64,000 nt of DNA from Pseudomonadota bacterium (GTDB lineage: Bacteria; Pseudomonadota; Gammaproteobacteria; Burkholderiales; Burkholderiaceae_C), in NCBI GenBank assembly GCA_020161775.1, contig JAIUOW010000004.1:219081-283080 (forward strand), written 5' to 3'. Under the pieces are notes generated by a model. It did no database searches, had not been told where the DNA came from, and worked only from the letters and a program-made list of their open reading frames with translations. Positions 12,917 through 33,611 of the stretch are shown here, one piece after another (the first letter of the stretch is position 1; each line of letters begins with the position of its first letter). The position numbers and the translations under genes are program-made.

Positions 12917-12937
12917 GATGCAAGAATCTTGTTTTAT

Positions 12938-12977
12938 CGACACGTCATCAGCTTATGTCGCCGCTGACGACACGTCA
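12938..12977. promoter_or_regulatory. Direct/inverted repeat operator candidate upstream of fic
   Basis: The decamer CGACACGTCA occurs at 12938-12947 and again at 12968-12977, spaced 30 bp (about three helical turns). The second copy is part of a perfect interrupted palindrome, TGACG-ACA-CGTCA (12965-12977), whose reverse strand reads TTGACG and could double as a -35 element for fic. The Fic protein has a C-terminal winged helix, so autorepression is a reasonable guess. Confidence 0.5.
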
Positions 12978-13989: not shown

Positions 13990-14047
13990 TGAACTATCTA
14001 TCGCCTGAATGACTATTTATCAATCCCTGGATCACCAATATAGTTCA
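13990..14047. promoter_or_regulatory. LysR divergent promoter region with TGAACTAT/ATAGTTCA inverted repeat
   Basis: TGAACTAT (13990-13997) and ATAGTTCA (14040-14047) are perfect inverted repeats 42 bp apart in the gap between the lysR gene and the oxidoreductase. The right arm overlaps TATAGT (14039-14044), a good -10 for the rightward gene; the hexamer 17 bp upstream (TTTATC) is a weak -35, as expected for an activator-dependent promoter. Confidence 0.45.
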
Positions 14048-14092
14048 TTCAAGCCCGCAGACCGGGCCCCAACTCCACCGAAAGGAAACGAT

Positions 14093-14716
14093 ATGAAGGT
14101 TCTCGTTATTGGCGCCGGCAACATGGGCGCAGGCTTCGTCAAGCAACTGGCCGCCGCTGGCCACCAGGTCAGCGTGACCGCACGCGACATCACCAAGGCC
14201 CAGGCAGTGGCACAGCAGTTCGGCGCCAGCGCCGTGCCGCAAGACAATGCCGCCAGCGGCGTGGATGCAGTGGTCGTCGCCACACCTTATGGCGAAGCCG
14301 CCGCTGCGCTGCGCAGCGTGGGCGCGCGGGCCGGCACGGTCGTGATCGACATCACCAACCCGCTGACGGCGGACTACATGGGCCTGACGCTGGGCCACAG
14401 CACCTCCGCCGCGGAAGAGATTGCCCGGGCCGTGCCCGGCGCCGAAGTGGTCAAGGGCTTCAACACCGTGTTTGCGCAGGTGCTGGCCAATGGCGCTGAC
14501 CTGGGCGGCGAGAAGGTGACAGTGTTCCTGGCCAGCGACAGCGAGCGCGGCAAGCAAACGGCCAAGGCGCTGGCTGAAAGCATGGGCTTCAAGACCCTGG
14601 ACGCGGGCGGCCTGAAGAACGCGCGCTACCTGGAGCCGCTGGCCGGCCTGAACATCTACTTCGGCTATGGCGCAGGCCTGGGCACGGCGGTGGCGCCGGC
14701 CTGGATCGGCAGCTGA
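14093..14716 (+). CDS. NADPH-dependent F420 reductase-like oxidoreductase (NAD(P)-binding)
   Basis: A 207-residue single-domain Rossmann protein. VLVIGAGNMGAGF at the N-terminus is the dinucleotide-binding loop, and TARD after strand 2 with basic context fits NADP(H). The central IDITNPLT and VVKGFNTV segments are typical of the F420H2:NADP oxidoreductase / DinF-like family. Burkholderiales do not generally use F420, so the true electron partner is probably another small molecule. The ATG at 14093 follows an AAAGGAAAC ribosome site; the frame upstream of it runs through the lysR intergenic region. A likely target of the divergent LysR. Confidence 0.9.
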   Translation: MKVLVIGAGNMGAGFVKQLAAAGHQVSVTARDITKAQAVAQQFGASAVPQDNAASGVDAVVVATPYGEAAAALRSVGARAGTVVIDITNPLTADYMGLTLGHSTSAAEEIARAVPGAEVVKGFNTVFAQVLANGADLGGEKVTVFLASDSERGKQTAKALAESMGFKTLDAGGLKNARYLEPLAGLNIYFGYGAGLGTAVAPAWIGS

Positions 14717-14751
14717 TCCCACCCACCTGTCAACCCCCATCAGGAGCCCCT

Positions 14752-15534
14752 ATGACTGCCCCTTCGCTGTTTGTGTCCCACGGCGCACCCACCTACGCCA
14801 TCGAGCCTGGCCTGGCCGGCGAGCAGTTGCACGCCCTGGGCCTGGCCCTGGGCAAGCCCCGGGGCATCGTGGTGGTGTCGCCGCACTGGATGACGCGCGG
14901 CGTGGCCGTGACAGCCAGCGCCCGCCCGCCCACCATCCATGACTTTGGCGGCTTTCCTGACGCGCTGTACAGCCTGCAATACCCCGCGCCCGGCGACGGT
15001 GCGCTGGCCGCGCGCGCCGCGCAGCTGCTGCAGGGGCTGGGCCTGCCGGTGAGGCTGGACGACACGCGCGGGCTGGACCACGGCGCCTGGGTGCCGCTGC
15101 TGCACATGTACCCCGACGCCGACGTGCCCGTGGTGCAGGTGTCGCTGCCGCATGACAGCACGCCGGCCACGGCTTTTGCGCTCGGCCAGGCGCTGGCGCC
15201 GCTGGCGCATGAGGGCGTGCTGGTGATCGGCTCGGGCAGCCTCACGCACAACCTGTATGAGTTCCGTGGCGGCGATGTGGCGGCGGCGGACTACGCGGTG
15301 GAATTCACGCACTGGATCCGCGCCGCGGTGCGGCGCGGCGACACAGCTGCGCTGCTGCACGCGCTGCGCGACGCACCGCACGCGCGGCGCGCGCACCCCA
15401 CCAGCGACCATTACCTGCCGCTGCTGGTGGCCGCGGGCGCCGCGGCGCAGGCCACGCCCGCCACCGTGCTGGACGGCGGCATCCGCCACGGCATGCTGGC
15501 CATGGAGTCGTACCTGTTTGGCCAGGTGCATTAA
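14752..15534 (+). CDS. DODA-type extradiol aromatic ring-opening dioxygenase (LigB fold, YgiD type)
   Basis: A 260-residue class III extradiol dioxygenase of the DOPA 4,5-dioxygenase-like group. The N-terminal LFVSHGAPTYAI carries the first metal-ligand His, PHWMTRG the second His region, and GSGSLTHNLYEF plus LDHGAWVPL the remaining His residues of the active site. It cleaves a catechol-type ring next to one hydroxyl using non-haem Fe(II) or Zn-dependent chemistry. It lies 35 bases after the oxidoreductase with its own ribosome site (CAGGAG), in a lysR-oxidoreductase-dioxygenase arrangement. The physiological substrate is not known. Confidence 0.94.
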   Translation: MTAPSLFVSHGAPTYAIEPGLAGEQLHALGLALGKPRGIVVVSPHWMTRGVAVTASARPPTIHDFGGFPDALYSLQYPAPGDGALAARAAQLLQGLGLPVRLDDTRGLDHGAWVPLLHMYPDADVPVVQVSLPHDSTPATAFALGQALAPLAHEGVLVIGSGSLTHNLYEFRGGDVAAADYAVEFTHWIRAAVRRGDTAALLHALRDAPHARRAHPTSDHYLPLLVAAGAAAQATPATVLDGGIRHGMLAMESYLFGQVH

Positions 15535-19439: not shown

Positions 19440-21239
19440 TCAGGCGGCGCGAAACACCACAGGCACCGCGATCGCGGCCAGCTTCCCGCGCAGATCGCGC
19501 TCGCGCGACAGGTCCGCCAGCGTCACCACCGCCGACAGCGTGCCGCCCTGCTCCACCGCCTGCACCGTCACGCCCGGCCCCGCGGCACCGGCTTCGGCCA
19601 GCATTTCGGTCAGCTTGACCTCGATGGCGCGCAGGCGCAGCGCGGGCTTGTAGATCTTGCCGATGGCGGTCATCGGCATCGCGTCGATGACCGTCACGCG
19701 CTTGGGCGCGGCCGGGCGCTCATACACCTGCGGCGCCACCTCGGCCAGCAGCGCGGCGGCGTCCATCCGCGCGCCAGGCTTGAGCGTCACGAAGGCCACG
19801 GGCAGCTCGCCCGCGTACGCATCGGGCTCGCCCACCACGGCGCACAGGGCCACGGCGGGATGGGCAAGAAAGGCCTCTTCCACCAGGCCGGGGTCGATGT
19901 TGTGGGAGCCGCGGATGATCACGTCCTTGGCGCGGCCGGTGATGTGCAGGTAACCCTGCGCGTCAATGTGGCCGAGGTCGCCCGAGATGAGCCACTCGCC
20001 TTCAAACATGCCGGCGTTGCGCGCGGCGTCGGTGTAGCCGGGGCTCACGTGCGGGCCGCGCAGCACCACCACGCCGGTTTCACCGGTCGCACAAGGCCGG
20101 TCCAGCTGAACCTCGCCGTCTTTCCATGCCACGGCGCGCACCTCGGTGTAGGGCAGGCGCAGGCCGGTGGAGCCGGGCACGCGCGGCGCGGCGAATGGCT
20201 CGATGCTGACCAGGCCCGCGCATTCGGTCATGCCCAGGATGTTGCGCACCGGAATGCGCAGGCGCTGTTCAAACTGCGCGGCCAGCTCGCCAGGCAGCGG
20301 CGAGCCGCCGGTGTAGGCCACCTTCACGGTGGAAATGTCCGCATCCACCGGCTGGTTCACCAGCGTGGCCAGGATGGTGGGCACGCAGGCCAGCGCGGTC
20401 ACGCGTTCGCGCTCGCAGAATTTCCAGTAGTTTTTGACGAACGCCGCGTTGCGCATGCCGCTCAAGGTGGGCAGCACCTGCGTGGCGCCCACAGCCAGCA
20501 GCGCCAGGCCGTACACAAAGGCGCCCGCCACATGGAACAGCGGAAAGCCGTTGACCTCCACCGTGTGTTCGTCAAAGCCGTAGTAGTGGTGGGCAAACCA
20601 GCTGGTATGCGCTTCGTTGCCGTGGGTGTGCTGCGCGAGCTTGGGCGCACCCGTGGTGCCGCCGGTGTGAAAGAACGCCGCAATGCGCCCGGGCGTGAGC
20701 GCAGGATCGAATGTCAATATGTCCGGCTGGGCGTCCAGTTGGTCAAACCGGCCCGGCGCGATCTGCAGCACGGGGATGTCGTGCAGGGCACGCACCTTCT
20801 GCACGGTGCTCCACACGTCCAGCTCGTCGTTGGGGCCCAGCGCCACCAGCAGTTTGACGCCTGCGGCCTTTAGCAGCGCGGCGATGTGGTCGGGCTGCAG
20901 CAGGTAATTGATGGGGCAGGCCCGCCCCGCCACCTGCGCGCCCCAAAGCGCGTAATGCGTCTCGGGGATGTTGGGCGCCAGGATGGCTACCGCATCGTCC
21001 GGCGCCACGCCCAGCGATCTGAACAGGTTGGCCGCGCGGTGGATGTTGGCCAGCAGTTGCGCATAACTCACGCGCACGGGCTCCGCTGCGATGTCGCCAT
21101 TGGGCAAATAGTTGAACGCCACGCGCTGCGCGTGCCGCGCGGCAGCCGATGCGATCAGCCCGTAGGTCGTGCGCTGGGGAATCGCCTGCTCATACGGCTG
21201 CTGCTCCAGCCGCTGCACATCCGCCAGCGAGGCAATCAC
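19440..21239 (-). CDS. Acyl-CoA synthetase (AMP-binding), probable aryl/hydroxycinnamate ligase
   Basis: A 599-residue adenylate-forming enzyme. FFHTGGTTGAPK is the ATP phosphate loop, GMTECAG the adenine motif, GEWLISGDLGHID the hinge Asp region, and AIGKIYKPALR holds the conserved catalytic Lys. It activates a carboxylate to its CoA ester. It is longer than many ligases because of a C-terminal tail of about 60 residues after the Lys motif. The start is GTG (21237-21239) overlapping the amidohydrolase stop as GTGA, so the two are co-translated and divergent from the feruloyl-CoA synthase operon. A second ligase for the same or related acids is the best guess. Confidence 0.93.
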   Translation of the reverse strand: MIASLADVQRLEQQPYEQAIPQRTTYGLIASAAARHAQRVAFNYLPNGDIAAEPVRVSYAQLLANIHRAANLFRSLGVAPDDAVAILAPNIPETHYALWGAQVAGRACPINYLLQPDHIAALLKAAGVKLLVALGPNDELDVWSTVQKVRALHDIPVLQIAPGRFDQLDAQPDILTFDPALTPGRIAAFFHTGGTTGAPKLAQHTHGNEAHTSWFAHHYYGFDEHTVEVNGFPLFHVAGAFVYGLALLAVGATQVLPTLSGMRNAAFVKNYWKFCERERVTALACVPTILATLVNQPVDADISTVKVAYTGGSPLPGELAAQFEQRLRIPVRNILGMTECAGLVSIEPFAAPRVPGSTGLRLPYTEVRAVAWKDGEVQLDRPCATGETGVVVLRGPHVSPGYTDAARNAGMFEGEWLISGDLGHIDAQGYLHITGRAKDVIIRGSHNIDPGLVEEAFLAHPAVALCAVVGEPDAYAGELPVAFVTLKPGARMDAAALLAEVAPQVYERPAAPKRVTVIDAMPMTAIGKIYKPALRLRAIEVKLTEMLAEAGAAGPGVTVQAVEQGGTLSAVVTLADLSRERDLRGKLAAIAVPVVFRAA

Positions 21240-22099
21240 GCCAGCCCCAGCAACCTGACCGCGTTGTCCTTCAGGATGCCGGGCATCACCTCGGGCTTGA
21301 AGCCGGCTTCTTCAAAGTCCTTCATCCAGCGCTCGGGCGTGATCAGCGGGTAGTCACTGCCAAACAGCACGCGGTCCTTGAGCAGCGTGTTGGCGTACTG
21401 CACCAGCTGCTTCGGGAAATACTTGGGGCTCCAGCCGCTCAGGTCGATCCACACATTGGGCTTGTGCGTGGCCACGCTCAGGGCCTCGTCCTGCCAGGGG
21501 AAGCTCGGGTGCGCCATGACGATCTGCATGTCGGGGAAGTCGATCGCCACGTCGTCCAGGTGCATGGGGTTGCTGTATTCCAGCCGCAGCCCGCCGCCGC
21601 AGCGCATGCCGCTGCCAATGCCGCTGTGGCCGGTGTGGAAGATCGCGGGCAGCTTGTGCGCATTGATCACCTCGTAGATGGGCCAGGCCATGCGGTCATA
21701 GGGGTGATAGCCCTGCACCGTGGGGTGGAACTTGAAGCCCTTGACGTTGTGCTCCTTGATCAGCCGTTCGGCCTCGCGCGCGCCCATCTTGCCCTTGTGC
21801 GGGTCGATGCTGCCAAAGCACATCATCATGTCGCTGTTGGCCTTGGCCGCCTCGGCGATTTCCTCGTTGGGGATGCGCCGGCGGCCCAGCTGCGATTCGC
21901 TGTCCACGGTGAACATCACCAGGCCGATCTTCTTTTCGCGGTAATGGGCAATGGTCTCGGCAATGGTGGGGCGGCGGCTGTTGCGGAAATACTTGTCCGC
22001 CGCGCGGTCGTATTCCTCGCCGTAATTGTCAAACGGGTTCCAGCAGCTCACCTCGGCATGGGTGTGCACGTCAATGGCGATGAGGTTCTTGTAATCCAC
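21236..22099 (-). CDS. Amidohydrolase family protein (amidohydrolase-2/ACMSD type), candidate 3-aryl-3-oxopropanoyl-CoA hydrolase
   Basis: A 287-residue TIM-barrel metal hydrolase. IDVHTHAE supplies the HxH ligands, FKFHPT a conserved Lys/His strand, FHTGHSG and AHPSFPW further His residues, and LFGSDYP the terminal catalytic Asp. This type includes decarboxylases and C-C hydrolases. In actinobacterial hydroxycinnamate pathways (Rhodococcus cou and Corynebacterium phd clusters) an amidohydrolase cleaves the 4-hydroxybenzoylacetyl-CoA intermediate. The same partners (ligase, crotonase, SDR, MarR) are present here, so the same step is proposed by context, not proven. It is the first gene of the leftward arm of the divergent cluster. 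Confidence 0.92.
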   Translation of the reverse strand: MDYKNLIAIDVHTHAEVSCWNPFDNYGEEYDRAADKYFRNSRRPTIAETIAHYREKKIGLVMFTVDSESQLGRRRIPNEEIAEAAKANSDMMMCFGSIDPHKGKMGAREAERLIKEHNVKGFKFHPTVQGYHPYDRMAWPIYEVINAHKLPAIFHTGHSGIGSGMRCGGGLRLEYSNPMHLDDVAIDFPDMQIVMAHPSFPWQDEALSVATHKPNVWIDLSGWSPKYFPKQLVQYANTLLKDRVLFGSDYPLITPERWMKDFEEAGFKPEVMPGILKDNAVRLLGLA

Positions 22100-22136
22100 G
22101 GGTTGTCTCCTGGTTCCCAGGCCACTGGAGCCTAGG

Positions 22137-22160
22137 GTAAGTCCTTACGAAACAGGACTT
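22137..22160. promoter_or_regulatory. Overlapping palindromes in the divergent amidohydrolase/crotonase promoter
   Basis: AAGTCCT (22139-22145) and AGGACTT (22154-22160) are perfect 7-bp inverted arms around an 8-bp spacer. Overlapping it, GTAAG-TC-CTTAC (22137-22148) is a second palindrome. The position, between two divergent catabolic operons, suits a repressor operator, plausibly for the cluster's MarR protein; a hairpin in the leader RNA is the alternative. Confidence 0.5.
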
Positions 22161-22176
22161 CGGGTTTCTTGAATTG

Positions 22177-22196
22177 GTTATTATTTATAACAATAA
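22177..22196. promoter_or_regulatory. AT-rich MarR-type operator/promoter candidate before the crotonase gene
   Basis: GTTAT-TATTT-ATAAC (22177-22191) lies in an AT-rich island, nested with TTATT (22178-22182) and AATAA (22192-22196). AT-rich dyads of this form are typical MarR-family sites, and the island is the obvious place for the rightward promoter. No convincing -35/-10 pair could be fixed. Confidence 0.45.
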
Positions 22197-22220
22197 TCCA
22201 CCCACTTGGCAAACACCGAC

Positions 22221-22994
22221 ATGACCCAAAAAGACGTTCAACTTGAAATCCGCGGCCCTGTTGCCGTGGTGCGCCTGAGCCGTCCGGCCAAGCGCAACGC
22301 GCTGTCCGACGGTGTCATTCTGGCACTGCGCGGCATTTTTGAAACCCTGCCCGACACGGTGCGCGCCGCCGTGCTGGACGGCGAAGGCGAGCACTTCTGC
22401 GCCGGCCTGGACCTGAGCGAGCTGAAAGAGCGCGATGCCGGCCAGGGCCTGCACCATTCACGCATGTGGCATGCCGCGCTGGAGCGTGTGCAGTACGGCC
22501 CGGTGCCGGTGGTGGCCGCGCTGCACGGCGCGGTGGTGGGCGGCGGGCTGGAGCTGGCCAGCGCCTGCCACATCCGCGTGGCCGATGAGTCCACCTTCTA
22601 TGCCCTGCCCGAGGGCTCGCGCGGCATCTTCGTGGGCGGCGGCGGCGCGGTGCGCATTCCGCGCCTGATCGGCGCCGCGCGCATGACCGACATGATGCTC
22701 ACCGGCCGCGTGTACAACGCGGCGGACGGCGAGCGCGCGGGCTTCGCGCAGTACCTGGTGCCCCAGGGACAGGGGTTTGACAAAGCCTTTGAGCTGGCCA
22801 CGCGCGTGGCAGAAAACGCGCCGCTGACCAACTACGCGCTGATGCACGCCCTGCCCCGCATCGCCGAGCAGCCGGCGGACCAGGGTTTCATGACCGAAGC
22901 CCTGATGGCCGCCATTGCGCAAAGCGCGCCCGAGGCCAAGAGCCGCGTCAAGGCCTTCCTGGACGGCAAGGCAGCCAAGGTCAAGAAGGCCTGA
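22221..22994 (+). CDS. Crotonase/enoyl-CoA hydratase family protein
   Basis: A 257-residue crotonase-fold enzyme. HFCAGLDLSEL and HGAVVGGGLELASACHIRVAD are the two oxyanion-hole segments, and ALPEGSRGIFVGGGGAVRIPRLIG is the active-site region with a Glu in PEG. In the hydroxycinnamate context it would hydrate feruloyl- or coumaroyl-CoA; whether it then releases an aldehyde (aldolase type) or passes the 3-hydroxyacyl-CoA to the SDR is decided by the partners, which favour the latter. The ATG at 22221 is preferred over a TTG at 22206; neither has a strong ribosome site. It begins the rightward operon. Confidence 0.9.
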   Translation: MTQKDVQLEIRGPVAVVRLSRPAKRNALSDGVILALRGIFETLPDTVRAAVLDGEGEHFCAGLDLSELKERDAGQGLHHSRMWHAALERVQYGPVPVVAALHGAVVGGGLELASACHIRVADESTFYALPEGSRGIFVGGGGAVRIPRLIGAARMTDMMLTGRVYNAADGERAGFAQYLVPQGQGFDKAFELATRVAENAPLTNYALMHALPRIAEQPADQGFMTEALMAAIAQSAPEAKSRVKAFLDGKAAKVKKA

Positions 22995-23011
22995 CTCTCA
23001 ACCACAAGAAC

Positions 23012-24862
23012 ATGAGCGAGACATCCCTGAACCCCAAGTACCGCCCGCTGACCTTCGGCGTGACGCGCGTGCTGATGCGCGACGGCCAGGACGGCACGCG
23101 CTATGTACGCGCCGACCAGCCGCTTGAGCCGCATGCACAGCGCCTGACCGACCGCCTGCTCCACTGGGCGCAGGCCACGCCCGGGCGCACCTTCATGGCG
23201 CGGCGCGTGCGCAACGCCGACGGCAGCACCGGCGACTGGCGCCACATCAGCTACGCCCAGGCGCTGGCCAGCGCGCGCAGCATCGGCCAGGCCCTGCTGG
23301 ACCGCGGCCTGAGCCCCGAGCGGCCCGTGGCCATCCTGAGCGAAAACGACCTGGAGCACGCGCTGCTGGCGCTGGGCTGCCTGTACGCGGGCGTGCCCTA
23401 CTGCCCGGTGTCGCCCGCCTATTCCACCGTCAGCCAGAACTACGACAAGCTGCGCCATGTGCTCACCACGCTCACACCGGGCCTGGTATTCGCGGCCGAC
23501 AGCGCACGCTATGGCAAGGCCATTGCGGCTACCGTGGGCGACGATGTGGAGGTGCTGACGGGCGATGCGTTCAACACGCTGCTGGCCACCGAGGCCACGG
23601 CGGCGGTGGATGCCGCCATGCAGGCCACCGGGCCCGACACCATCACCAAGTTCCTGTTCACGTCGGGCTCCACCAAGCTGCCCAAGGCGGTGATCAACAC
23701 CCACGGCATGTGGTGCGCCAACCAGCAGCAGATGCGCCAGAGCATGCCGGTGCTGGCCGACGAGCCGCCCGTGCTGGTGGACTGGCTGCCCTGGAACCAC
23801 ACCTTCGGCGGCAACCACAACTTCGGCCTGACGGTCTACAACGGCGGCACGCTGTACATCGACGATGGCAAGCCCACGCCCGCGCTCATGGCCGAGACGC
23901 TGCGCAACCTGCGCGAGATCGCGCCCACGGTGTACTTCAACGTGCCCACTGGCTTCGAGGCGATTGCCAACGCCATGAAGACCGACGACGCGCTGCGCAA
24001 GAACCTGCTGTCGCGCGTGCGCATGTTCTTCTATGCCGGCGCGGCGCTGGCCCAGCCCGTGTGGGACACGCTGCATGAGGTGCAGGAGCGCGAGATCGGC
24101 GAACGCATCGTGATGGGCACCGGCCTGGGCATGACGGAATCGTCGCCGTTTGCGATCTTCGTCACCAACCCCAACGTCAAGGCCGGCTACCTGGGCGTGC
24201 CCACGCCGGGACTCGAATTGAAGCTGGTGCCGGCCGAGGGCAAGACCGAAGTCCGCTACAAGGGCCCCAACATCACGCCTGGCTACTGGCGCGCGCCCGA
24301 CGCCACGGCAGAGGCCTTTGACGAGGAAGGCTTCTTCTGCACCGGCGACGCCGTGCTGTGGATCGACGAGGCCGACGTGCACCAGGGCCTGAAGTTCGAC
24401 GGCCGCATCGCAGAAGACTTCAAGCTCGCCACCGGCACGTTCGTGAGCGTGGGCCCGCTGCGCGCCAAGGTCATTGCCGCGGGCGCGCCCTATGTGCAGG
24501 ACGCGGTGCTGACCGGCATCAACCTGAAGGAAGTGGGCGCCCTGATATTCCCCACCGCCGCCGTGCGCCAGCTGGCGGGCTTGGGCGTCAACGCCCCGAT
24601 GAAAGAAGTGGTGGAAAGCGCACCGGTGCAGGCGCACTTCCAGACAGTGCTCAACGAACTGAACCGTTCAGGCACCGGCAGTGCCAACCGCATCGCGCGG
24701 CTGCACGTCATGCACGAGCCGCCGTCCATCGACAAGGGCGAAGTCACCGACAAGGGCTCCATCAACCAGCGTGCAGTGCTCAAACACCGCGACGCCATGG
24801 TGAATGCCCTGCATGACGGCACCCTGCCTTTCACCCTTTTGCCAACGGAAGCAAAGCCATGA
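23012..24862 (+). CDS. Feruloyl-CoA synthase
   Basis: A 616-residue AMP-forming ligase. The N-terminal region (RYVRADQPLEPHAQRLTDRL), LSENDLEHALLALGCLYAGVPY and SPAYSTVSQNYDKLRHVL closely follow the proteobacterial feruloyl-CoA synthase pattern. FTSGSTKLPK (about residues 215-224) is the ATP loop and MGTGLGMTESSP the adenine motif. The C-terminal KGEVTDKGSINQRAVLKHR is also typical of this family. It converts ferulate, p-coumarate or caffeate to the CoA thioester in the cytoplasm. It lies 17 bases after the crotonase and overlaps the SDR by 4 bases. Confidence 0.93.
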   Translation: MSETSLNPKYRPLTFGVTRVLMRDGQDGTRYVRADQPLEPHAQRLTDRLLHWAQATPGRTFMARRVRNADGSTGDWRHISYAQALASARSIGQALLDRGLSPERPVAILSENDLEHALLALGCLYAGVPYCPVSPAYSTVSQNYDKLRHVLTTLTPGLVFAADSARYGKAIAATVGDDVEVLTGDAFNTLLATEATAAVDAAMQATGPDTITKFLFTSGSTKLPKAVINTHGMWCANQQQMRQSMPVLADEPPVLVDWLPWNHTFGGNHNFGLTVYNGGTLYIDDGKPTPALMAETLRNLREIAPTVYFNVPTGFEAIANAMKTDDALRKNLLSRVRMFFYAGAALAQPVWDTLHEVQEREIGERIVMGTGLGMTESSPFAIFVTNPNVKAGYLGVPTPGLELKLVPAEGKTEVRYKGPNITPGYWRAPDATAEAFDEEGFFCTGDAVLWIDEADVHQGLKFDGRIAEDFKLATGTFVSVGPLRAKVIAAGAPYVQDAVLTGINLKEVGALIFPTAAVRQLAGLGVNAPMKEVVESAPVQAHFQTVLNELNRSGTGSANRIARLHVMHEPPSIDKGEVTDKGSINQRAVLKHRDAMVNALHDGTLPFTLLPTEAKP

Positions 24863-25623
24863 ACATTCAAGGACAAGCCGCCCTCGTCACCGGCGGCGCA
24901 TCAGGCCTGGGCGAGGCCACCGCGCGCGAGCTGGCCCGCCTGGGCGCCAAGGTGGCCGTGCTGGACGTGAACATGGCTCTGGCCGAAAAGGTGGCCGCCG
25001 ACATCAACGGCATTGCCTGCCAGTGCGACATCACCAACACCGACAGCGTGGTGGCCGCGCTGGACAAGGCCGCCGCCGCCCACGGCCCGGCACGCATCCT
25101 CATGAACATCGCCGGCATCGGCACGGCCAAGCGCATCGTCGGCAAGGACGGCAATCCCGCTGCGCTGGAAGATTTTGCGAAAGTCATCAACGTCAACCTG
25201 ATCGGCAGCTACAACATCAGCCGCCTGTTTGCTGCGGCCTGCGTCAAGCTGCCCGCGCTGGAAGACGGCGAACGCGGCGTGATGATGTTCACCGCGTCGG
25301 TGGCCGCGTTTGACGGCCAGGTGGGCCAGCAGGCCTACAGCGCCAGCAAGGGCGGCCTGGTCGGCATGACGCTGCCCATGGCGCGCGACCTGGCGCAGCA
25401 CGGCATCCGCGTGTGCACGGTGGCGCCGGGCCTGTTTGCCACGCCGCTCATGAAGCAGCTGCCCGAGCCCGTGCAGGCCTCCCTTGCGGCCTCCATCCCG
25501 TTCCCCTCGCGCCTGGGCAAGCCGCAAGAGTTTGCGCAGCTGGCGGCACACATCGTGACCAATGGCCACCTGAACGGCGAGGTCATCCGGCTCGATGGGG
25601 CCCTGCGCATGGCCCCTCGATAA
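24859..25623 (+). CDS. SDR-family 3-hydroxyacyl-CoA dehydrogenase (HSD17B10-like)
   Basis: A 254-residue short-chain dehydrogenase. TGGASGLG is the cofactor loop, LDVNM after strand 2 carries the acidic residue that selects NAD, NIAGIGTAKR is the NAG-equivalent, and QQAYSASKGG contains the catalytic YxxxK. An insertion of about ten residues after the catalytic-Ser strand and the GLFATPLMKQLPE segment are typical of type II 3-hydroxyacyl-CoA dehydrogenases. In this operon it would oxidise the 3-hydroxy-3-aryl-propanoyl-CoA made by the crotonase. Its start overlaps the stop of feruloyl-CoA synthase (ATGA). Confidence 0.93.
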   Translation: MNIQGQAALVTGGASGLGEATARELARLGAKVAVLDVNMALAEKVAADINGIACQCDITNTDSVVAALDKAAAAHGPARILMNIAGIGTAKRIVGKDGNPAALEDFAKVINVNLIGSYNISRLFAAACVKLPALEDGERGVMMFTASVAAFDGQVGQQAYSASKGGLVGMTLPMARDLAQHGIRVCTVAPGLFATPLMKQLPEPVQASLAASIPFPSRLGKPQEFAQLAAHIVTNGHLNGEVIRLDGALRMAPR

Positions 25624-25647
25624 AACCATTTTTCCAAGGAGACAACC

Positions 25648-26631
25648 ATGAGCAACCGACGTACTTTCATCACCCAGACGGCCGCGCTGGCCGCCGGCGC
25701 GGGCTTGCCCCTGTCGGCGCTGGCCCAAGCCAATCTGGAACTGGCCAAGGTCATCTGCGGCTTCCCGCCCGGTGGCACCAGCGACGCCATGTCGCGCCGC
25801 ATCGCCGACAAGCTGCGCGGCGGCTATGCCACCAACGTGGTAGTGGAGAACAAGCCCGGCGCGGGCGGCCAGATCGGCGTGACCACGCTGCGCGACAGCC
25901 CGGCTGACGGCAGCTCCATGCTGCTCACGCCGTCGTCCATGCTGTCGATCTATCCGTTCGTGTACAAGTCGCTTCCCTACAAGCCGCTGGAAGACGTGCA
26001 GCCGGTTTCGCTGGCCTGCTACTTCAACCACGCGTTCGGCGTGGGCCCGGCCGTGCCCGAGAGCGTGAAGACCATCAAGGACTTCCTGGCCTGGGCCAAG
26101 GCCAACCCGACCAAGGCCAACTACGGCTCGCCGGGCGCGGGCTCCATGCCGCACCTGATCGTGGGCCTGCTGAACAAGCTGACGGGCAGCGACCTCAAGC
26201 ACATCCCTTACCGCGGTTCGGCCCCCGGCATCCAGGACCTGCTGGGCGGGCAGATCTCGGCCATGTCGTCGCCGGTGGGTGATTACCTGCCCTACCTCAA
26301 GAGCGGCCGCCTGCGCCTGCTGGCCATCTCGGGCACCAACCGCAGCCCGTTCGTGCCCGACGTGCCCACGTACCGGCAGCAGGGCTACCCGATCACGGTG
26401 CGCGAGTGGTACGGCGTGTTCCTGCCCGGCAAGGCCAGCCCCGCCGTGGTCAGCCGCGCCGCGGCCTACCTGCAGCCCGCGCTGGCGCAGCCCGACCTGA
26501 TCAGCAGCATGGCCCAGGTGGGCATGGAAGTGCAGTCGTCCTCGCCCCAGGTGCTGGGCGATTTGCTGCGCGCCGACGCCGAGGAATGGCGCCGCCTGAT
26601 CAAGCAGATCGGCTTTACCGCAGAGAGTTAA
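25648..26631 (+). CDS. Bug-family tripartite tricarboxylate transporter substrate-binding protein (TctC type)
   Basis: A 327-residue periplasmic binding protein. The signal peptide begins SNRRTFITQTAALAAGAGLPL with a twin-arginine-like RRTF motif, cleaved near SALAQA. The mature part has VICGFPPGGTSDAMSR and VENKPGAGG, the Bug ligand loops. Paired with feruloyl-CoA synthase and a feruloyl esterase, an aromatic acid is the likely ligand. AAGGAG precedes the ATG. An 83-bp repeat element follows the stop codon. Confidence 0.93.
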   Translation: MSNRRTFITQTAALAAGAGLPLSALAQANLELAKVICGFPPGGTSDAMSRRIADKLRGGYATNVVVENKPGAGGQIGVTTLRDSPADGSSMLLTPSSMLSIYPFVYKSLPYKPLEDVQPVSLACYFNHAFGVGPAVPESVKTIKDFLAWAKANPTKANYGSPGAGSMPHLIVGLLNKLTGSDLKHIPYRGSAPGIQDLLGGQISAMSSPVGDYLPYLKSGRLRLLAISGTNRSPFVPDVPTYRQQGYPITVREWYGVFLPGKASPAVVSRAAAYLQPALAQPDLISSMAQVGMEVQSSSPQVLGDLLRADAEEWRRLIKQIGFTAES

Positions 26632-26635
26632 ACCA

Positions 26636-26718
26636 CCCCCGAGGCGCCCTTGGCGCCTCCCCCTCAAGGGGGCGCCGCCGGCGGCCCGGCAAAGCCGGTT
26701 CCGCGGCGGCACTTGAAT
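26636..26718. repeat. Dispersed intergenic repeat, copy A
   Basis: An 83-bp GC-rich element between tctC and the tannase gene. It contains an 8-bp perfect hairpin (GAGGCGCC-CTT-GGCGCCTC, 26641-26659), a CCCC-TCAA-GGGG hairpin (26660-26671) and a CCGGC-AAA-GCCGG core. A clearly related copy lies at 51928-52009, sharing the block GCGGCCCGGC and the block AGCCGGTTCCGCGG. Both follow a periplasmic binding-protein gene. It may terminate or attenuate transcription. Confidence 0.8.
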
Positions 26719-26745
26719 AAATCGTTGCGCCTTTTGGAGCCTTAT

Positions 26746-28464
26746 ATGAAAACGTCTCGTCTCTGGCTGCTGGGTGCAGTCGTCACCGTTGCGTCGCTGG
26801 CGGGCTGCTCTACGCAGCCGCCGGCCACCACGACGCTGAAAGCCGCCACACCCGCAACGTTAGCCCAATGCGAGCCACTGACCACGGCCTTTCGCCATGA
26901 CAACACCACGCTGGACTCCGCCGCCACCGTGCCCGCGGGCGCGCTCAAGCTGGCCGGCCAGAACGTGGCCGCGCACTGCCTGGTCAAGGGCGCGATGCAC
27001 AAACGCAAGGGCAGCGACGGGCGCGACTACGCGATTGCATTCGAGATGCGCCTGCCCCGGAACTGGAACGGGCGCTTTTACTACCAGGGCAACGGCGGCC
27101 TGGACGGCGCGGTGCGCCCGGCCGAAGGTGCCCTGGGCGGCGGGCCGCTGACCGGCGCGCTGATGCAGGGCTTTGCCGTCATCAGCTCCGACGCCGGCCA
27201 CACCGGCGCGCAGACGCCCTATTTCGGCGCCGAGCCGCAGGCCCGGCTGGACTACGGCTGGCAGGCCGTGGCCAAGCTCACGCCCATGGCCAAGGGGTTG
27301 ATCGCCACCGCCTACGGCAAGGGCCCCGACCGCTCGTACATCGGCGGCTGCTCCAACGGCGGGCGCCACGCCATGGTGGCCGCCGCGCGCATCGGCGACC
27401 AGTACGACGGCTACCTGGTGGGTGCGCCCGGCTACCGCCTGCCCAACGCCGCCATGGCCCAGCTGTGGGGCGTGCAGCAATGGGCGCCGCTGGCCACGCC
27501 GGGCGCCACCGTCAAGCACCCGCTGGCGCCCAACGTGAACATTGCCGACCTGGGCAGCGCACTGACCGCCGCCGAGCGCCAGACGGTGGCAGGCGCGCTG
27601 CTGGACAAATGCGACGCGCTGGACGGCCTGCGCGACGGTATGGTGCAGGCCACGCAGGCCTGCCAGGCGGCGTTTGACATCCGCCGCGACGTGGCCGCCT
27701 GTGGCACGGCGGGACGCAACGGCGCCTGCCTGACGCCCGCGCAAAAAGACGTGCTGGCCACAGCATTCGCCGGCGCCACCACACGCAGCGGCCGCGCGCT
27801 GTACAGCGCCTTTCCCATGGACGCGGGCATTGCCGGCGCCAACTGGGCGCAATGGAAATTCGTGAACGCGCTGGCGCTGGACCCGCTGTCGGTGGGCACG
27901 GTGTTCAGCTCGCCGCCCACGCCGGTGGATGCGATGAAGGAAGACCTGGACGCCCGCCTGGCGCTGCTGTCCGCCACCACGGCCACCTACCGTGAATCGG
28001 GCATCTCGCTGATGTCGCCCCCGGGCCACGAGAGCGCCGCCGGCATGGCCGCGCTGCAGGCACGCGGCGCGCGCATGGTGCTGTACCACGGCGTGAGCGA
28101 CGCCATCTTCTCGGCCGAGGACACCCGCCAGTGGATGCTGCGCCTGGACCAGGCGCTGGGTGGCAAGGGCGCGGACTTCGCGCGCTACTTCCCGGTGCCC
28201 GGCATGAACCATTGCAGCGCCGGCCCGGCGGCCGACCAGTTCGACCTGCTGACGCCGCTGGTGCAGTGGGTGGAGCAAGGCGTGGCACCCAACGCCGTGA
28301 CGGCCAGCGTGCGCGGCGCCGGCAACCCCGGCGGCGCCAACGCCGAACTGCCCGCAGGCTGGTCCGCCAGCCGCACCCGGCCGCTGTGCGCCTGGCCCAC
28401 CGTGGCCCGCTACAACGGCAGCGGCGACGTGGAAAAAGCATCCAGCTTCAGCTGCAAACCCTGA
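26746..28464 (+). CDS. Tannase/feruloyl esterase family lipoprotein
   Basis: A 572-residue secreted esterase. The N-terminal signal ends in the lipobox LAGC, so it is likely lipid-anchored and faces the periplasm or surface. GGCSNGGRH is the family's nucleophile elbow (Ser in CSNGG), preceded by SSDAGHTG; the catalytic Asp and His lie in the later GVSDAIFS and GMNHCSAG segments, and the paired Cys that bridge the triad in this family are present. It would release hydroxycinnamates from plant cell-wall esters, or hydrolyse gallate or phthalate-type esters. The ATG at 26746 gives the signal peptide; the upstream frame reads through the repeat element. Confidence 0.92.
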   Translation: MKTSRLWLLGAVVTVASLAGCSTQPPATTTLKAATPATLAQCEPLTTAFRHDNTTLDSAATVPAGALKLAGQNVAAHCLVKGAMHKRKGSDGRDYAIAFEMRLPRNWNGRFYYQGNGGLDGAVRPAEGALGGGPLTGALMQGFAVISSDAGHTGAQTPYFGAEPQARLDYGWQAVAKLTPMAKGLIATAYGKGPDRSYIGGCSNGGRHAMVAAARIGDQYDGYLVGAPGYRLPNAAMAQLWGVQQWAPLATPGATVKHPLAPNVNIADLGSALTAAERQTVAGALLDKCDALDGLRDGMVQATQACQAAFDIRRDVAACGTAGRNGACLTPAQKDVLATAFAGATTRSGRALYSAFPMDAGIAGANWAQWKFVNALALDPLSVGTVFSSPPTPVDAMKEDLDARLALLSATTATYRESGISLMSPPGHESAAGMAALQARGARMVLYHGVSDAIFSAEDTRQWMLRLDQALGGKGADFARYFPVPGMNHCSAGPAADQFDLLTPLVQWVEQGVAPNAVTASVRGAGNPGGANAELPAGWSASRTRPLCAWPTVARYNGSGDVEKASSFSCKP

Positions 28465-28493
28465 GCCACCCCAAGAAGATCTGACCCCGCACC

Positions 28494-30269
28494 ATGGATT
28501 ACCGACCCCACGCCGATGACGCCCGATTCCTGCTGATGGAGGTGCTGGACGCGCCAGCACAGCTGGCCGCCCTGCCCGCCATGGCCGACGCCGACCCGGC
28601 GCTGATGGCCCAGGTGCTGGACGAAGCGGGCAAGTTCGTGGGCGAGGTGGTGGCACCGCTGAACGCGGCGGGCGACGCGACGGGCTGCACGTTCAACGCC
28701 GGCGGCGTGGCCACGCCGCCGGGTTTTCGCGATGCGTACCAGGCGTTCTGGCGGGCCGGCTGGCCGGCGCTGGCCTGCGCGCCGCAAGACGGCGGCCAGG
28801 GCCTGCCCTGGGTGCTGGAGGGCGTTCTGTACGAATGGCTGAGCGCGGCCAACCACGGCTGGACCATGGCGCCGGGGCTGCTGCATGGTGCCTATGAGTG
28901 CCTGAAGCACCACGGCAGCGCCGACCTGAAGCAGCGCTACCTGGCAAAGATCGCCAGCGGCGAATGGCTGGCCACCATGTGCCTGACCGAGCCCCATGCG
29001 GGCAGCGACCTGGGCCTGGTGCGCACGCGCGCCGTGGCGCAGGCAGACGGCAGCTACCACCTGAACGGCAGCAAGATCTTCATCTCGGGCGGCGAGCACG
29101 ACCTGACGGACAACATCATCCACCTGGTGCTGGCACGGCTGCCCGACGCGCCGCCCGGGCCCAAGGGGCTGTCGCTGTTCCTGGCGCCCAAGGTGCTGCC
29201 CCACGACACGCATGGGGGTGCACGCAACGCCGTGCACTGCGAGCGCATCGAGGAAAAAATGGGCCTGCATGGCAGCCCCACCTGCGCCATGCGGTTTGAC
29301 GGCGCCACCGGCTGGCTGATTGGCGAGCCGGGACGCGGGCTGAACGCGATGTTTGTGATGATGAACGCCGCGCGCCTGCATGTGGCGCTGCAGGGCGTGG
29401 GCCTGCTGGACGCGGCCTGGCAAAAGGCAGACGCCTATGCACGTGAACGCACGCAGATGCGCGTGCCGGGCCCGCGCGACGCCGCCAAGGCAGCAGACGA
29501 AATTATTGGCCACCCCGCCATCCAGCGCATCCTGGACACCGAGCGCGCCTGGGTGGACTGCGCGCGCGTGCTGGCCTACCGCACGGGTCTGGAACTGGAC
29601 ATCGCGCGCCACCACCCGGACGAAAAGCGCCGCGCCAGCGCGCAACGCTGGTGCAGCCTGGTCACGCCGGTGCTCAAGGCCGCCTGCACCGAGCAGGCCT
29701 TTCACGGCGCCAGCGACTGCCTGCAGGTCTTTGGCGGGCACGGCTACATCCGCGAATGGGGCATCGAGCAGATCGTGCGCGATTCGCGCGTGGCCATGAT
29801 CTACGAGGGCACCAACGAAATCCAGGCGATCGACCTGCTGGTGCGCAAGGTGCTGCCCGACGGCGGCGCCGCGCTGGCCGCGCTGCTGCTGGACCTGCGC
29901 CACGACCTGGACGCCGCCGTGCCGGAACACGCCGAGGTGCTGCGCCGCCTGGCCGAGCTGCGCTACGCCACCACGCAGCTGGCCCATGCGGCCCAGGCCG
30001 ACGCGCAGCTGCCCTACTGGGTCGCCGGCGACTACCTGCGCGCCGTGGCACTGGCACTGCTGGCCTGGGCCGCCACGCGCATCGACGCGGCCGCGCCCCG
30101 CGCCGCGCAGCCCGCGCGCTGGCAGCGCGCCACCCAGGCGCTGCGCCGCTGGGTGATGCCGGAATTCAGCCTGCGCCTGGGCCTCATCAAGGACAGCGCG
30201 GACAAAGCCGCTATGCTTGCGGGCCAAACCGCCCCCGCAGCCCCAGCCGCCACCCCCGCCAACGCATGA
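28494..30269 (+). CDS. Acyl-CoA dehydrogenase (long form with C-terminal extension)
   Basis: A 591-residue acyl-CoA dehydrogenase. MCLTEPHAGSDLGLVRTRA is the FAD signature, the HGASDCLQVFGGHGYIREW segment is the second family signature, and MIYEGTNEIQAIDL carries the catalytic Glu. The extra 150 C-terminal residues match the C-terminal domain of AcdA/DmdC-like enzymes. In this cluster it could desaturate dihydro-hydroxycinnamoyl-CoA (aryl-propanoyl-CoA) and feed it into the crotonase step; that is inference. A second protein of the same type is encoded at 47009. It starts 29 bases after the esterase and overlaps the MarR gene by 4 bases. Confidence 0.94.
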   Translation: MDYRPHADDARFLLMEVLDAPAQLAALPAMADADPALMAQVLDEAGKFVGEVVAPLNAAGDATGCTFNAGGVATPPGFRDAYQAFWRAGWPALACAPQDGGQGLPWVLEGVLYEWLSAANHGWTMAPGLLHGAYECLKHHGSADLKQRYLAKIASGEWLATMCLTEPHAGSDLGLVRTRAVAQADGSYHLNGSKIFISGGEHDLTDNIIHLVLARLPDAPPGPKGLSLFLAPKVLPHDTHGGARNAVHCERIEEKMGLHGSPTCAMRFDGATGWLIGEPGRGLNAMFVMMNAARLHVALQGVGLLDAAWQKADAYARERTQMRVPGPRDAAKAADEIIGHPAIQRILDTERAWVDCARVLAYRTGLELDIARHHPDEKRRASAQRWCSLVTPVLKAACTEQAFHGASDCLQVFGGHGYIREWGIEQIVRDSRVAMIYEGTNEIQAIDLLVRKVLPDGGAALAALLLDLRHDLDAAVPEHAEVLRRLAELRYATTQLAHAAQADAQLPYWVAGDYLRAVALALLAWAATRIDAAAPRAAQPARWQRATQALRRWVMPEFSLRLGLIKDSADKAAMLAGQTAPAAPAATPANA

Positions 30270-30745
30270 GCACCCGCAAGCCCGCCGCCGTCCCTTCGGT
30301 CGAAGAGGTCGATACCAGCTACCTGGAAAGCCTGATCGGCTACAACGCGCGGCGCGCGGCGCTGTCGGTGATCGAGGTGTTCCTGGACCGAATGGCCGTG
30401 TATGGCCTGCGGCCGGTGGATTTTTCGGTGCTGTCGCTGATCACCCACAACCCCGGCATCACCTCGCGCCAGCTGTGTACCACGCTGGGCATGCTGCCGC
30501 CCAACCTGGTGGGCATGATCAACAACTTTGAAAAGCGCGACCTGGTCATGCGCAAGCCCCACCCGCGCGACGGCCGGGCCATGGGGCTGCACCTGACCGC
30601 CGCCGGCCACAAGCTGATGCGCGACGCCGAGCGCACCGCGGCCGAGCTGGAGCGCGACGTGGGCGCCCGCCTGAGCGCGGCCGAAAACAAGACGCTGATC
30701 CGGCTGCTGCAGAAGATCTACCTGCACCGCACTGAAACGGCCTAG
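30266..30745 (+). CDS. MarR-family transcriptional regulator
   Basis: A 159-residue MarR regulator with the winged helix at about residues 45-115 (GITSRQLCTTLGMLPPNLVGMINNFEKRDLVMRKPHPRDGRAMG contains the recognition helix and wing). Hydroxycinnamate clusters in other bacteria are repressed by MarR proteins (CouR, FerR/FerC, PhdR types) that release DNA on binding the aryl-CoA, so this is the likely controller of the cluster and of the palindromes at 22137-22196. It is the last gene of the rightward operon and overlaps the dehydrogenase by 4 bases. Confidence 0.92.
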   Translation: MSTRKPAAVPSVEEVDTSYLESLIGYNARRAALSVIEVFLDRMAVYGLRPVDFSVLSLITHNPGITSRQLCTTLGMLPPNLVGMINNFEKRDLVMRKPHPRDGRAMGLHLTAAGHKLMRDAERTAAELERDVGARLSAAENKTLIRLLQKIYLHRTETA

Positions 30746-32407: not shown

Positions 32408-32758
32408 ATGATCACCACCCCCTCCGGCCTGCAATACGAAGACACCACCGTGGGCGACGGCGCCGAAGCCAGGGCCGGCCAGGACGTCACCGTGCACTAC
32501 ACCGGCTGGCTGTACAACGACGGCGCGCAAGGCGCCAAGTTCGACTCCAGCAAGGACCGCAACGACCCGTTCGAGTTCTCGCTGGGCGCGGGCATGGTCA
32601 TCAAGGGCTGGGACGAAGGCGTGGCCGGCATGAAGATCGGCGGCAAGCGCACGCTGATCATCCCCGCCGCGCTGGGCTACGGCGCACGCGGCGCCGGCGG
32701 CGTGATCCCGCCGAATGCCACGCTCAAGTTCGACGTGGAACTGCTGGGCGTGCAATGA
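32408..32758 (+). CDS. FKBP-type peptidyl-prolyl cis-trans isomerase
   Basis: A 116-residue single-domain FKBP. VTVHYTGWL, FDSSKDRNDPFEF, GMVIKGWDEGVAGMKIGGKR and GYGARGAGGVIPPNATL together form the complete FKBP fold with the aromatic pocket residues Y, F, W and Y. There is no signal peptide, so it is cytoplasmic. It probably assists folding around prolines. It lies 17 bases after the FAH-family gene and may share its promoter, although function need not be linked. Confidence 0.96.
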   Translation: MITTPSGLQYEDTTVGDGAEARAGQDVTVHYTGWLYNDGAQGAKFDSSKDRNDPFEFSLGAGMVIKGWDEGVAGMKIGGKRTLIIPAALGYGARGAGGVIPPNATLKFDVELLGVQ

Positions 32759-32816
32759 AGGTGGCTCAGCCCTTGGTATAGCTGCCAGTTTGGCCTGTCA
32801 GGCGCAGTATGCGGCC

Positions 32817-33611
32817 ATGGACAGCAAACAGATACAGGCGGGCCTGCGCCCTTCAGCACGGGGGATGGTTGCCAGCCAACAGCACCCGCTCAGCCAGACC
32901 GGAGATCCGAAGACCGACGCCATGGCTGATCTCATACAGGTGCTGACCTTCTGGCAAGAAACCAGGGTCGATCTGGCCGAGGGCATAGAGCAAGTCATGT
33001 CTTGCGTGCTGGATCAACAAGTCGAGAACGGACGGCTGGACCTGAGCCCCCTGCGGGACAATCCGGCCCTGCCGCAGATACCTCTGATGCTCTGGCGCTC
33101 TCTGGCTGACTATTACAAGGTGCTGAGCAAGCAACCGCAGCTCATCGTGACCCTTCCCGCTGCGAGCCTGACAGGGCTGGCGGCCAAAACAACCATTGAC
33201 GGACTGAACAGAATGCCCGCAGTCGCGGCGCTGGGCATCGAGTTGCCGCCCGTGGCCCAAGTGGACCTGAGCGCGTTGGGCCAGGGCGTGCACCCGGAGA
33301 CAGGACGTCCGCTAGCGCCGCCACAGACAATTCAGGTCGCCCCCGCCAGGGAGCACCAGACAGGCACCGTCAAAACCAATCTGAAGGCACCACAACCTTC
33401 CCTCGTCTTGGGACATGACCCGAAAAACTGCATCACGGTCACCCAAGGGGACCTGTGTCTGCCCCTGGGAACCGGCATGAAGTGGGACACCAAGCAAGAA
33501 AGTCATTCCGCCGGCCCCAGTTCCAGTTCCAGTTCCAGTTCCAGTTCCAGTTCCAGTTCCAGTTCCAGTTCTTCGTCTTCTTCATCCTCCGCATCGACAA
33601 GGGAACCATGA
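32817..33611 (+). CDS. Hypothetical protein with C-terminal poly-serine tract
   Basis: A 264-residue protein that I do not recognise. Residues about 30-150 look helical (DLIQVLTFWQETRVDLAEGIEQVMSCV and LMLWRSLADYYKVLSKQ), followed by a Pro-rich linker and 24 consecutive serines at residues 235-258, ending ASTREP. The serine tract is written mainly by eight perfect copies of a hexanucleotide (33519-33566). There is no signal peptide. The ATG at 32817 avoids overlap with the FKBP gene. Codon use is less GC-biased than its neighbours, and the style resembles the unknown proteins at 725 and 2889. Confidence 0.65.
   Translation: MDSKQIQAGLRPSARGMVASQQHPLSQTGDPKTDAMADLIQVLTFWQETRVDLAEGIEQVMSCVLDQQVENGRLDLSPLRDNPALPQIPLMLWRSLADYYKVLSKQPQLIVTLPAASLTGLAAKTTIDGLNRMPAVAALGIELPPVAQVDLSALGQGVHPETGRPLAPPQTIQVAPAREHQTGTVKTNLKAPQPSLVLGHDPKNCITVTQGDLCLPLGTGMKWDTKQESHSAGPSSSSSSSSSSSSSSSSSSSSSSSSASTREP
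33519..33566 (+). repeat. Hexanucleotide tandem repeat (AGTTCC)8
   Basis: Eight perfect tandem copies of AGTTCC, in frame with the surrounding gene so that each unit encodes Ser-Ser; a ninth unit is degenerate (AGTTCT) and the tract continues as mixed serine codons. Slippage would change the serine run by two residues per unit without breaking the frame. Confidence 0.97.

Follow-up and report, generated by a model that had tools for sequence, protein, structure and literature searches.

A hydroxycinnamate gene cluster of Burkholderiales with a probable amidohydrolase-ended route of side-chain removal

The phd cluster of Corynebacterium glutamicum (PhdC) encodes a beta-oxidation-like route for hydroxycinnamates in which the last side-chain step belongs to an amidohydrolase. 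In the cou cluster of Rhodococcus jostii RHA1 (CouL, CouM, CouN, CouO and CouR), CouO, a member of the amidohydrolase superfamily, is described as performing the last deacetylation step, which yields the aromatic acid (PMC4737184). HpeF of the Rhodococcus hpe acetovanillone pathway, a proposed beta-ketoacyl-CoA hydrolase, is given as 95% identical to CouO (PMC9618137), but the beta-keto acid is formed there by carboxylation of an acetophenone and not by beta-oxidation. In Agrobacterium fabrum C58, atu1415-atu1417, atu1421 and hcaR/atu1422 are described as encoding a feruloyl-CoA synthase, an enoyl-CoA hydratase, a phenylhydroxypropionyl-CoA dehydrogenase, the final enzyme and a MarR regulator; a single promoter region occupies the intergenic space between atu1416 and atu1417 (PMC7797058). 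Here we describe a gene cluster at 19440-30745 of a 64,000-nucleotide stretch of Burkholderiales DNA (the window; positions 219081-283080 of contig C4, JAIUOW010000004.1, of a 4.36-Mb genome). It is very probably a hydroxycinnamate catabolic cluster in which the side chain is removed by a beta-oxidation-like route ending in an amidohydrolase. All nine genes named in a preliminary description of this DNA are present, in two divergent arms, and each has a family match above the curated cut-off.

The amidohydrolase and the closest described clusters

The closest described set is atu1415-1422 of A. fabrum (SpG8-1b region), not cou. Compared by published description only, the A. fabrum region holds the same enzyme set as the window. 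It differs in that Atu1421 is called a beta-keto-thiolase and that vanillate demethylation is folate-dependent (PMC7797058), whereas the genome studied here has a Rieske-type VanA; the esterase, the TctC protein and a second ligase (ligase 2) are extra in the window cluster. A cluster of Rhizobium Q54 (L036), also with divergent arms, encodes a feruloyl-CoA synthase (Fcs), short-chain dehydrogenase/reductase (SDR), crotonase and amidohydrolase that are 47%, 55%, 51% and 58% identical, respectively, to those of the window; the first is annotated as feruloyl-CoA synthase and the last as 4-hydroxyphenyl-beta-ketoacyl-CoA hydrolase. Because this amidohydrolase occupies the place corresponding to Atu1421, the beta-keto-thiolase name of the latter may deserve a second look.

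For the comparison with cou, an R. wratislaviensis locus (L113) stands in for RHA1. Its MarR differs from RHA1 CouR (PDB 5cyv) at 3 of 146 positions, as read by eye from the alignment, and we therefore regard L113 as a genuine cou cluster. The likeness lies in the CouO superfamily and the MarR regulator: the window amidohydrolase is 51% identical to its L113 homologue over residues 2-286, and the best PDB match of the window MarR is 6c28, named CouR (72.2 bits). However, the gene that follows couO in L113 encodes a hydratase of the MaoC family, where the window encodes a crotonase, and the SDRs of the two clusters, HSD10-like in the window, are only about 30% alike. Thus, the earlier equation of the whole gene set with Rhodococcus cou does not hold, the amidohydrolase being the only component clearly in common.

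Judged by sequence, the window amidohydrolase is of the CouO type. Residues D10, H12, H14, H125, H155, H197 and D249 are invariant in all 46 rows of one alignment (A2); in a wider one (A1), which includes relatives of 34-40% identity, some of them vary. We take H12, H14, H125, H155, H197 and D249 to be the ligands of the amidohydrolase metal site. The structure is predicted with a pLDDT of 93.3. The fold is common to the amidohydrolase and ACMSD-like decarboxylases, and the enzyme might be read as an aromatic or beta-keto acid decarboxylase, the chain being cleaved by a housekeeping thiolase encoded elsewhere. Such a role appears most improbable. Kinship with decarboxylases, raised as a possible objection in the preliminary description, was checked by profile comparison, and the enzyme proved far from the named decarboxylases by sequence (at most 38 bits, against 116 for the uncharacterised BB4693). 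A decarboxylase would also leave unexplained the mutual replacement of the amidohydrolase and a cluster thiolase described below, and it would misfit acetophenone-type carboxylase clusters (L038, L040 and L042), where the amidohydrolase is encoded with a biotin carboxylase, an HAD phosphatase and an acetoacetyl-CoA ligase-like enzyme and where carboxylation would just have made the beta-keto acid.

The acetophenone-type clusters are among twelve plasmid loci (L036-L047) compared for family context, and they should have only the aryl-beta-ketoacyl-CoA intermediate in common with the window cluster. L043 unites SDR, crotonase, MarR, Fcs and amidohydrolase genes; the amidohydrolase gene adjoins Fcs in L039 and a tannase-family esterase gene in L044. 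Nearer to cou are L037 and L045, in which the amidohydrolase is accompanied by a ligase, an SDR and a MaoC hydratase. The relatives in L041, L046 (34%) and L047 (40%) have other or ambiguous contexts. The name feruloyl-CoA synthase for the window Fcs follows from its annotated relatives in L036 and L043; against the best-scoring NCBIfam model, NF009232 ('acyl-CoA synthetase'), the protein falls short, with 714 bits for a cut-off of 777.

In a wider scan of genome contigs for amidohydrolase relatives, none of the best 80 of 574 came from C. glutamicum, A. fabrum or R. jostii. Actinobacteria provide a third context (L120 850-6861; L129, L133, L135 and others are similar). Among the same best 80, such loci include a crotonase 53-62% identical to that of the window in 18 cases and a match to an acetoacetyl-CoA ligase-like probe in 23; L120 additionally has an AMP ligase and a 3HCDH-type dehydrogenase. 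A second subgroup of amidohydrolases (L065-L069), 59-61% identical to that of the window, was met in five of the fetched regions in other gene orders, in some cases with a second crotonase. The L067 region also encodes a 712-residue protein which, judging from its first residues, presumably resembles an NDP-forming acyl-CoA ligase.

Terminal enzymes in related genomes

We analyzed 299 genomes of the same bacterial family, one per species and drawn evenly; scoring was confined to the best 4 to 8 first-look candidates of each genome (at most 8 for the hydratase-lyase), so that the counts may miss weak matches. The amidohydrolase was found in 117 genomes (1e-60) and Fcs in 164 (1e-150), the latter in 110 of the 117 amidohydrolase genomes versus 54 of the 182 others. 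The cluster-type thiolase gave 59 matches (1e-150). Among the 164 Fcs genomes, 97 have the amidohydrolase only, 42 the thiolase only, 13 both and 12 neither (odds ratio 0.038, p 5e-17, with shared ancestry ignored).

Gene neighbourhoods show the same alternation. In the window and in 29 of 40 hand-picked regions of relatives with the amidohydrolase, the divergent amidohydrolase and crotonase genes start less than 700 bp apart, and because this pair recurs the cluster is not a chance array. From the 54 Fcs genomes lacking the amidohydrolase, 20 regions were hand-picked (L201-L220), and in 19 of them a thiolase gene is part of the crotonase-Fcs cluster: 15 regions have it between Fcs and the SDR, four have it at the divergent position otherwise taken by the amidohydrolase gene, and one lacks it. 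The crotonase, Fcs and SDR of these thiolase-ended clusters are 75-86%, 68-75% and 73-93% identical to those of the window, but a thiolase would give an aroyl-CoA and not the free acid. Only L055 and L077 of the 40 amidohydrolase regions hold both enzymes, so their co-occurrence in a genome need not mean one cluster. As for the window itself, it contains none of the nine Thiolase_N matches of its genome, in agreement with the beta-ketothiolase-free cluster described earlier, and the relatives' cluster thiolase has no match in this genome at 1e-150.

On an Fcs tree built by a quick method from 54 rows, the amidohydrolase requires five changes of label, of which starred branches force four, and the thiolase six, of which they force two. 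A single clade was rejected both for the thiolase rows (p-AU 7e-5) and for the amidohydrolase rows (p-AU 2e-4), in a test that was picked after the tree was seen and in which 19 thiolase and 32 amidohydrolase rows were labelled by gene content, two 'both' rows and one 'neither' row being excluded. Inside a mainly thiolase clade lie L048, L049 and L075, which have the amidohydrolase, and L055 and L077, which have both enzymes. By path, the amidohydrolases closest to that of the window are those of L048 and L049 (support 87, not starred); in the amidohydrolase tree, 6 of 38 inner branches are starred. L048, L049, L055 and L075 all have ligase 2. This pattern suggests, with weak support, that the amidohydrolase and ligase 2 may have moved in together. 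An independent-pairs test yielded three usable pairs on starred branches (six on all branches), too few for a sign test, and in these the amidohydrolase and the thiolase never changed in the same direction.

We consider it probable that the terminal step is exchangeable within one family, the thiolase and the unrelated amidohydrolase having replaced each other more than once, with the few clusters that hold both as possible intermediates and with the amidohydrolase sometimes arriving paired with ligase 2. This exchange may be the part that a specialist would not expect; we found no earlier report of it in open-licence PMC papers, although one may exist elsewhere. The nature of the terminal enzyme matters for lignin bioconversion, since the hydrolase should deliver vanillate directly and the thiolase vanilloyl-CoA. 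The natural exchange also offers matched pairs for asking when a cell gives up a thioester bond.

The proposed pathway and its alternatives

In the pathway that we propose, the esterase would free hydroxycinnamic acids, Fcs would form the CoA thioester, the crotonase would hydrate the double bond and the SDR, whose best PDB matches include type II 3-hydroxyacyl-CoA dehydrogenases, would oxidise the beta-hydroxyl. The metal-dependent amidohydrolase would then add water to the aryl ketone and split C2 from C3, giving acetyl-CoA and a free aromatic acid (vanillate, 4-hydroxybenzoate or protocatechuate). An amidohydrolase in place of the thiolase of a beta-oxidation-like route, as put forward in the preliminary description, is supported by the homology with CouO, by the absence of a hydratase-lyase and by the exchange in relatives. 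The released acid would be O-demethylated by VanAB or hydroxylated by PobA, and the ring cleaved by the protocatechuate 4,5 route. About 20 kb to the left of the cluster are the genes for VanA and a VanB-like reductase, and farther out in that direction come those for LigB and LigK and another two of the Amidohydro_2 family. PobA (653.6 bits against a cut-off of 538.7) is encoded on a different contig. Because VanA, PobA, LigB and LigK are all encoded in the genome, the acids released by the hydrolase should be usable as such.

The crotonase could instead be a hydratase-lyase that gives the aldehyde, with the SDR and the amidohydrolase serving something else. We take NF006588 (shown as PRK09120.1) to be the model of hydroxycinnamoyl-CoA hydratase/lyases. 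Against this model the window crotonase scores 88.2 bits (cut-off 276) and ranks 17th among the 24 crotonases of the genome; its match to NF006013 reaches 425 bits (cut-off 232). None of the 24 crotonase matches exceeds 276 bits when all 30 candidates are scored, and since the best reaches 171, the genome, rated 100% complete, has no vanillin-forming enzyme of the NF006588 family. The model itself works, being above cut-off in one of 14 named genomes used as a control. Among the 299 related genomes, a hydratase-lyase is over the cut-off in just seven, only one of which belongs to the 164 with Fcs. No aldehyde dehydrogenase domain was detected among the ten cluster-region proteins scanned, vanillin dehydrogenase not having been searched for genome-wide. 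Finally, crotonase residues E116 and E136, retained in 58 of 58 matches from the fetched loci, align with Glu121 and Glu141, described as catalytic in the hydratase DmdD (PMC3660561). We consequently rejected vanillin formation for this cluster on the NF006588 scores and the retention of both glutamates, and hold it to be very improbable.

Several observations nevertheless weigh against the amidohydrolase-ended pathway. The nearest PDB relative of the crotonase, with DmdD also near, is 3hin, which comes from Rhodopseudomonas palustris (PMC3660561), and this organism is described as degrading p-coumarate via 4-hydroxybenzaldehyde (PMC12366328; the aldehyde also in PMC3223731), as the vanillin alternative would have it. 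In addition, the SDR is missing from 6 of the 34 regions with both amidohydrolase and Fcs (33 of the 40 relatives and the window), and 7 of the 40 amidohydrolase regions have no Fcs nearby. These cases need another explanation, e.g. genes located elsewhere.

Two Burkholderiales genome papers continue to route ferulate through vanillin. One, on Comamonas, draws the conversion of feruloyl-CoA to vanillin and says of the enzymes for beta-oxidation of coumarate that they 'are still not clear' (PMC6307125); in the other, on Paraburkholderia, vanillin is inferred although a feruloyl-CoA hydratase was not found (PMC8007519). In the family of the window the hydratase-lyase is rare (7 of 299 genomes over the cut-off) compared with Fcs (164 genomes).

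A further alternative concerns the substrate: ferulate may be secondary, and the main compound degraded, after activation by ligase 2, may carry some other aryl or alkyl chain (a 3-arylpropionate or an aryl ketone, for instance). Ligase 2 matches NF005714 (637.5 bits, cut-off 632), and the PDB yields general aryl/acyl ligases for it, with a best score of 165 bits and one entry named feruloyl-CoA synthetase; a homologue of 65-78% identity adjoins the amidohydrolase gene in 5 of the 40 fetched relatives. The best PDB match of the acyl-CoA dehydrogenase is 8pns (512 bits); this enzyme may, as the preliminary description proposed, admit dihydro-hydroxycinnamates to the pathway. The presence of this dehydrogenase and of a second ligase would suit such a substrate, as would the proximity of the crotonase to DmdD, the pairing of the same amidohydrolase with other ligases in some Actinobacteria (in L120 with a 3HCDH-type dehydrogenase) and the MHETase-like esterase. 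The label "feruloyl esterase" given earlier stands in part: the family is right (Tannase, 381.7 bits), but in the PDB the protein is nearest to MHETase (329.8 bits) and not to feruloyl esterases (106.4 bits). By eye, its N-terminus looks like a lipoprotein signal (LAGC). On the other hand, relatives without ligase 2 (35 of 40 regions), and often also without the dehydrogenase, retain the crotonase, Fcs and the SDR, and VanA, PobA and the ring-cleavage genes fit ferulate and coumarate. We therefore find a different main substrate unlikely, if less so than either of the two alternatives above, and prefer hydroxycinnamates. A MHETase relative in a hydroxycinnamate cluster hints at natural substrates of the MHETase family.

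Gene order, putative operator and neighbouring genes

The arms diverge at 22100-22205. In the left arm the amidohydrolase gene precedes that of ligase 2, with a 4-bp overlap; the right arm runs crotonase, Fcs, SDR, TctC, esterase, acyl-CoA dehydrogenase and MarR, with 4-bp overlaps of SDR with Fcs and of MarR with the dehydrogenase (Table 1).

Table 1. Features of the cluster, in window coordinates
Feature	Position	Strand	Family match or remark
Ligase 2 (599 aa), AMP-forming acyl/aryl-CoA ligase	19440..21239	-	Pfam AMP-binding 215.5 bits
Amidohydrolase (287 aa), putative aryl-beta-ketopropionyl-CoA C-C hydrolase, CouO type	21236..22099	-	Amidohydro_2 168.8 bits
Operator-like inverted repeat TGGTTAT-N5-ATAACAA, inter-arm	22175..22193	+	
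Crotonase, putative hydroxycinnamoyl-CoA hydratase	22206..22994	+	ECH_1 145 bits; true start possibly ATG 22221
Feruloyl-CoA synthase-like ligase (Fcs, 616 aa)	23012..24862	+	AMP-binding 174.3 bits
HSD10-like SDR, putative aryl-beta-hydroxypropionyl-CoA dehydrogenase	24859..25623	+	adh_short 144.5 bits
TctC solute-binding protein	25648..26631	+	TctC 190 bits
Tannase/feruloyl-esterase family protein, MHETase-like	26746..28464	+	Tannase 381.7 bits
Acyl-CoA dehydrogenase (591 aa), possibly for dihydrohydroxycinnamoyl-CoA	28494..30269	+	Acyl-CoA_dh domains
MarR regulator	30266..30745	+	MarR_2 43.7 bits

The inverted repeat between the arms is the sole such site in the 4.36-Mb genome at no more than one mismatch. 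A site scoring at least 11/14 is found upstream of the crotonase gene in 41 of 57 regions, including 18 of the 20 regions lacking the amidohydrolase and 17 of the 19 thiolase-ended clusters; the consensus was derived from the same sequences, and the scores are biased towards it. Regions in which the crotonase is less than 66% identical mostly lack the repeat. The natural reading of these sequences is that a putative operator is common to both cluster types. MarR probably represses both arms at this site until it binds a hydroxycinnamoyl-CoA.

Just left of the window (L088 4036-19476; C4:203116-218556) lies a block for protocatechuate 4,5-cleavage and vanillate demethylation, encoding LigB, LigK (415 bits), a Gfo/Idh dehydrogenase, two Amidohydro_2 proteins, a TRAP transporter, the VanB-like reductase and VanA. 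Apart from this block, a LigB-family extradiol dioxygenase (114 bits) is encoded beside an F420-type oxidoreductase at 14009-15534 of the window. The protein encoded at 11798-12943 combines a Fic domain with a C-terminus like that of SoFic, and a run of serine codons (about 33535-33600) is located near the end of a 298-residue open reading frame at 32715-33611.

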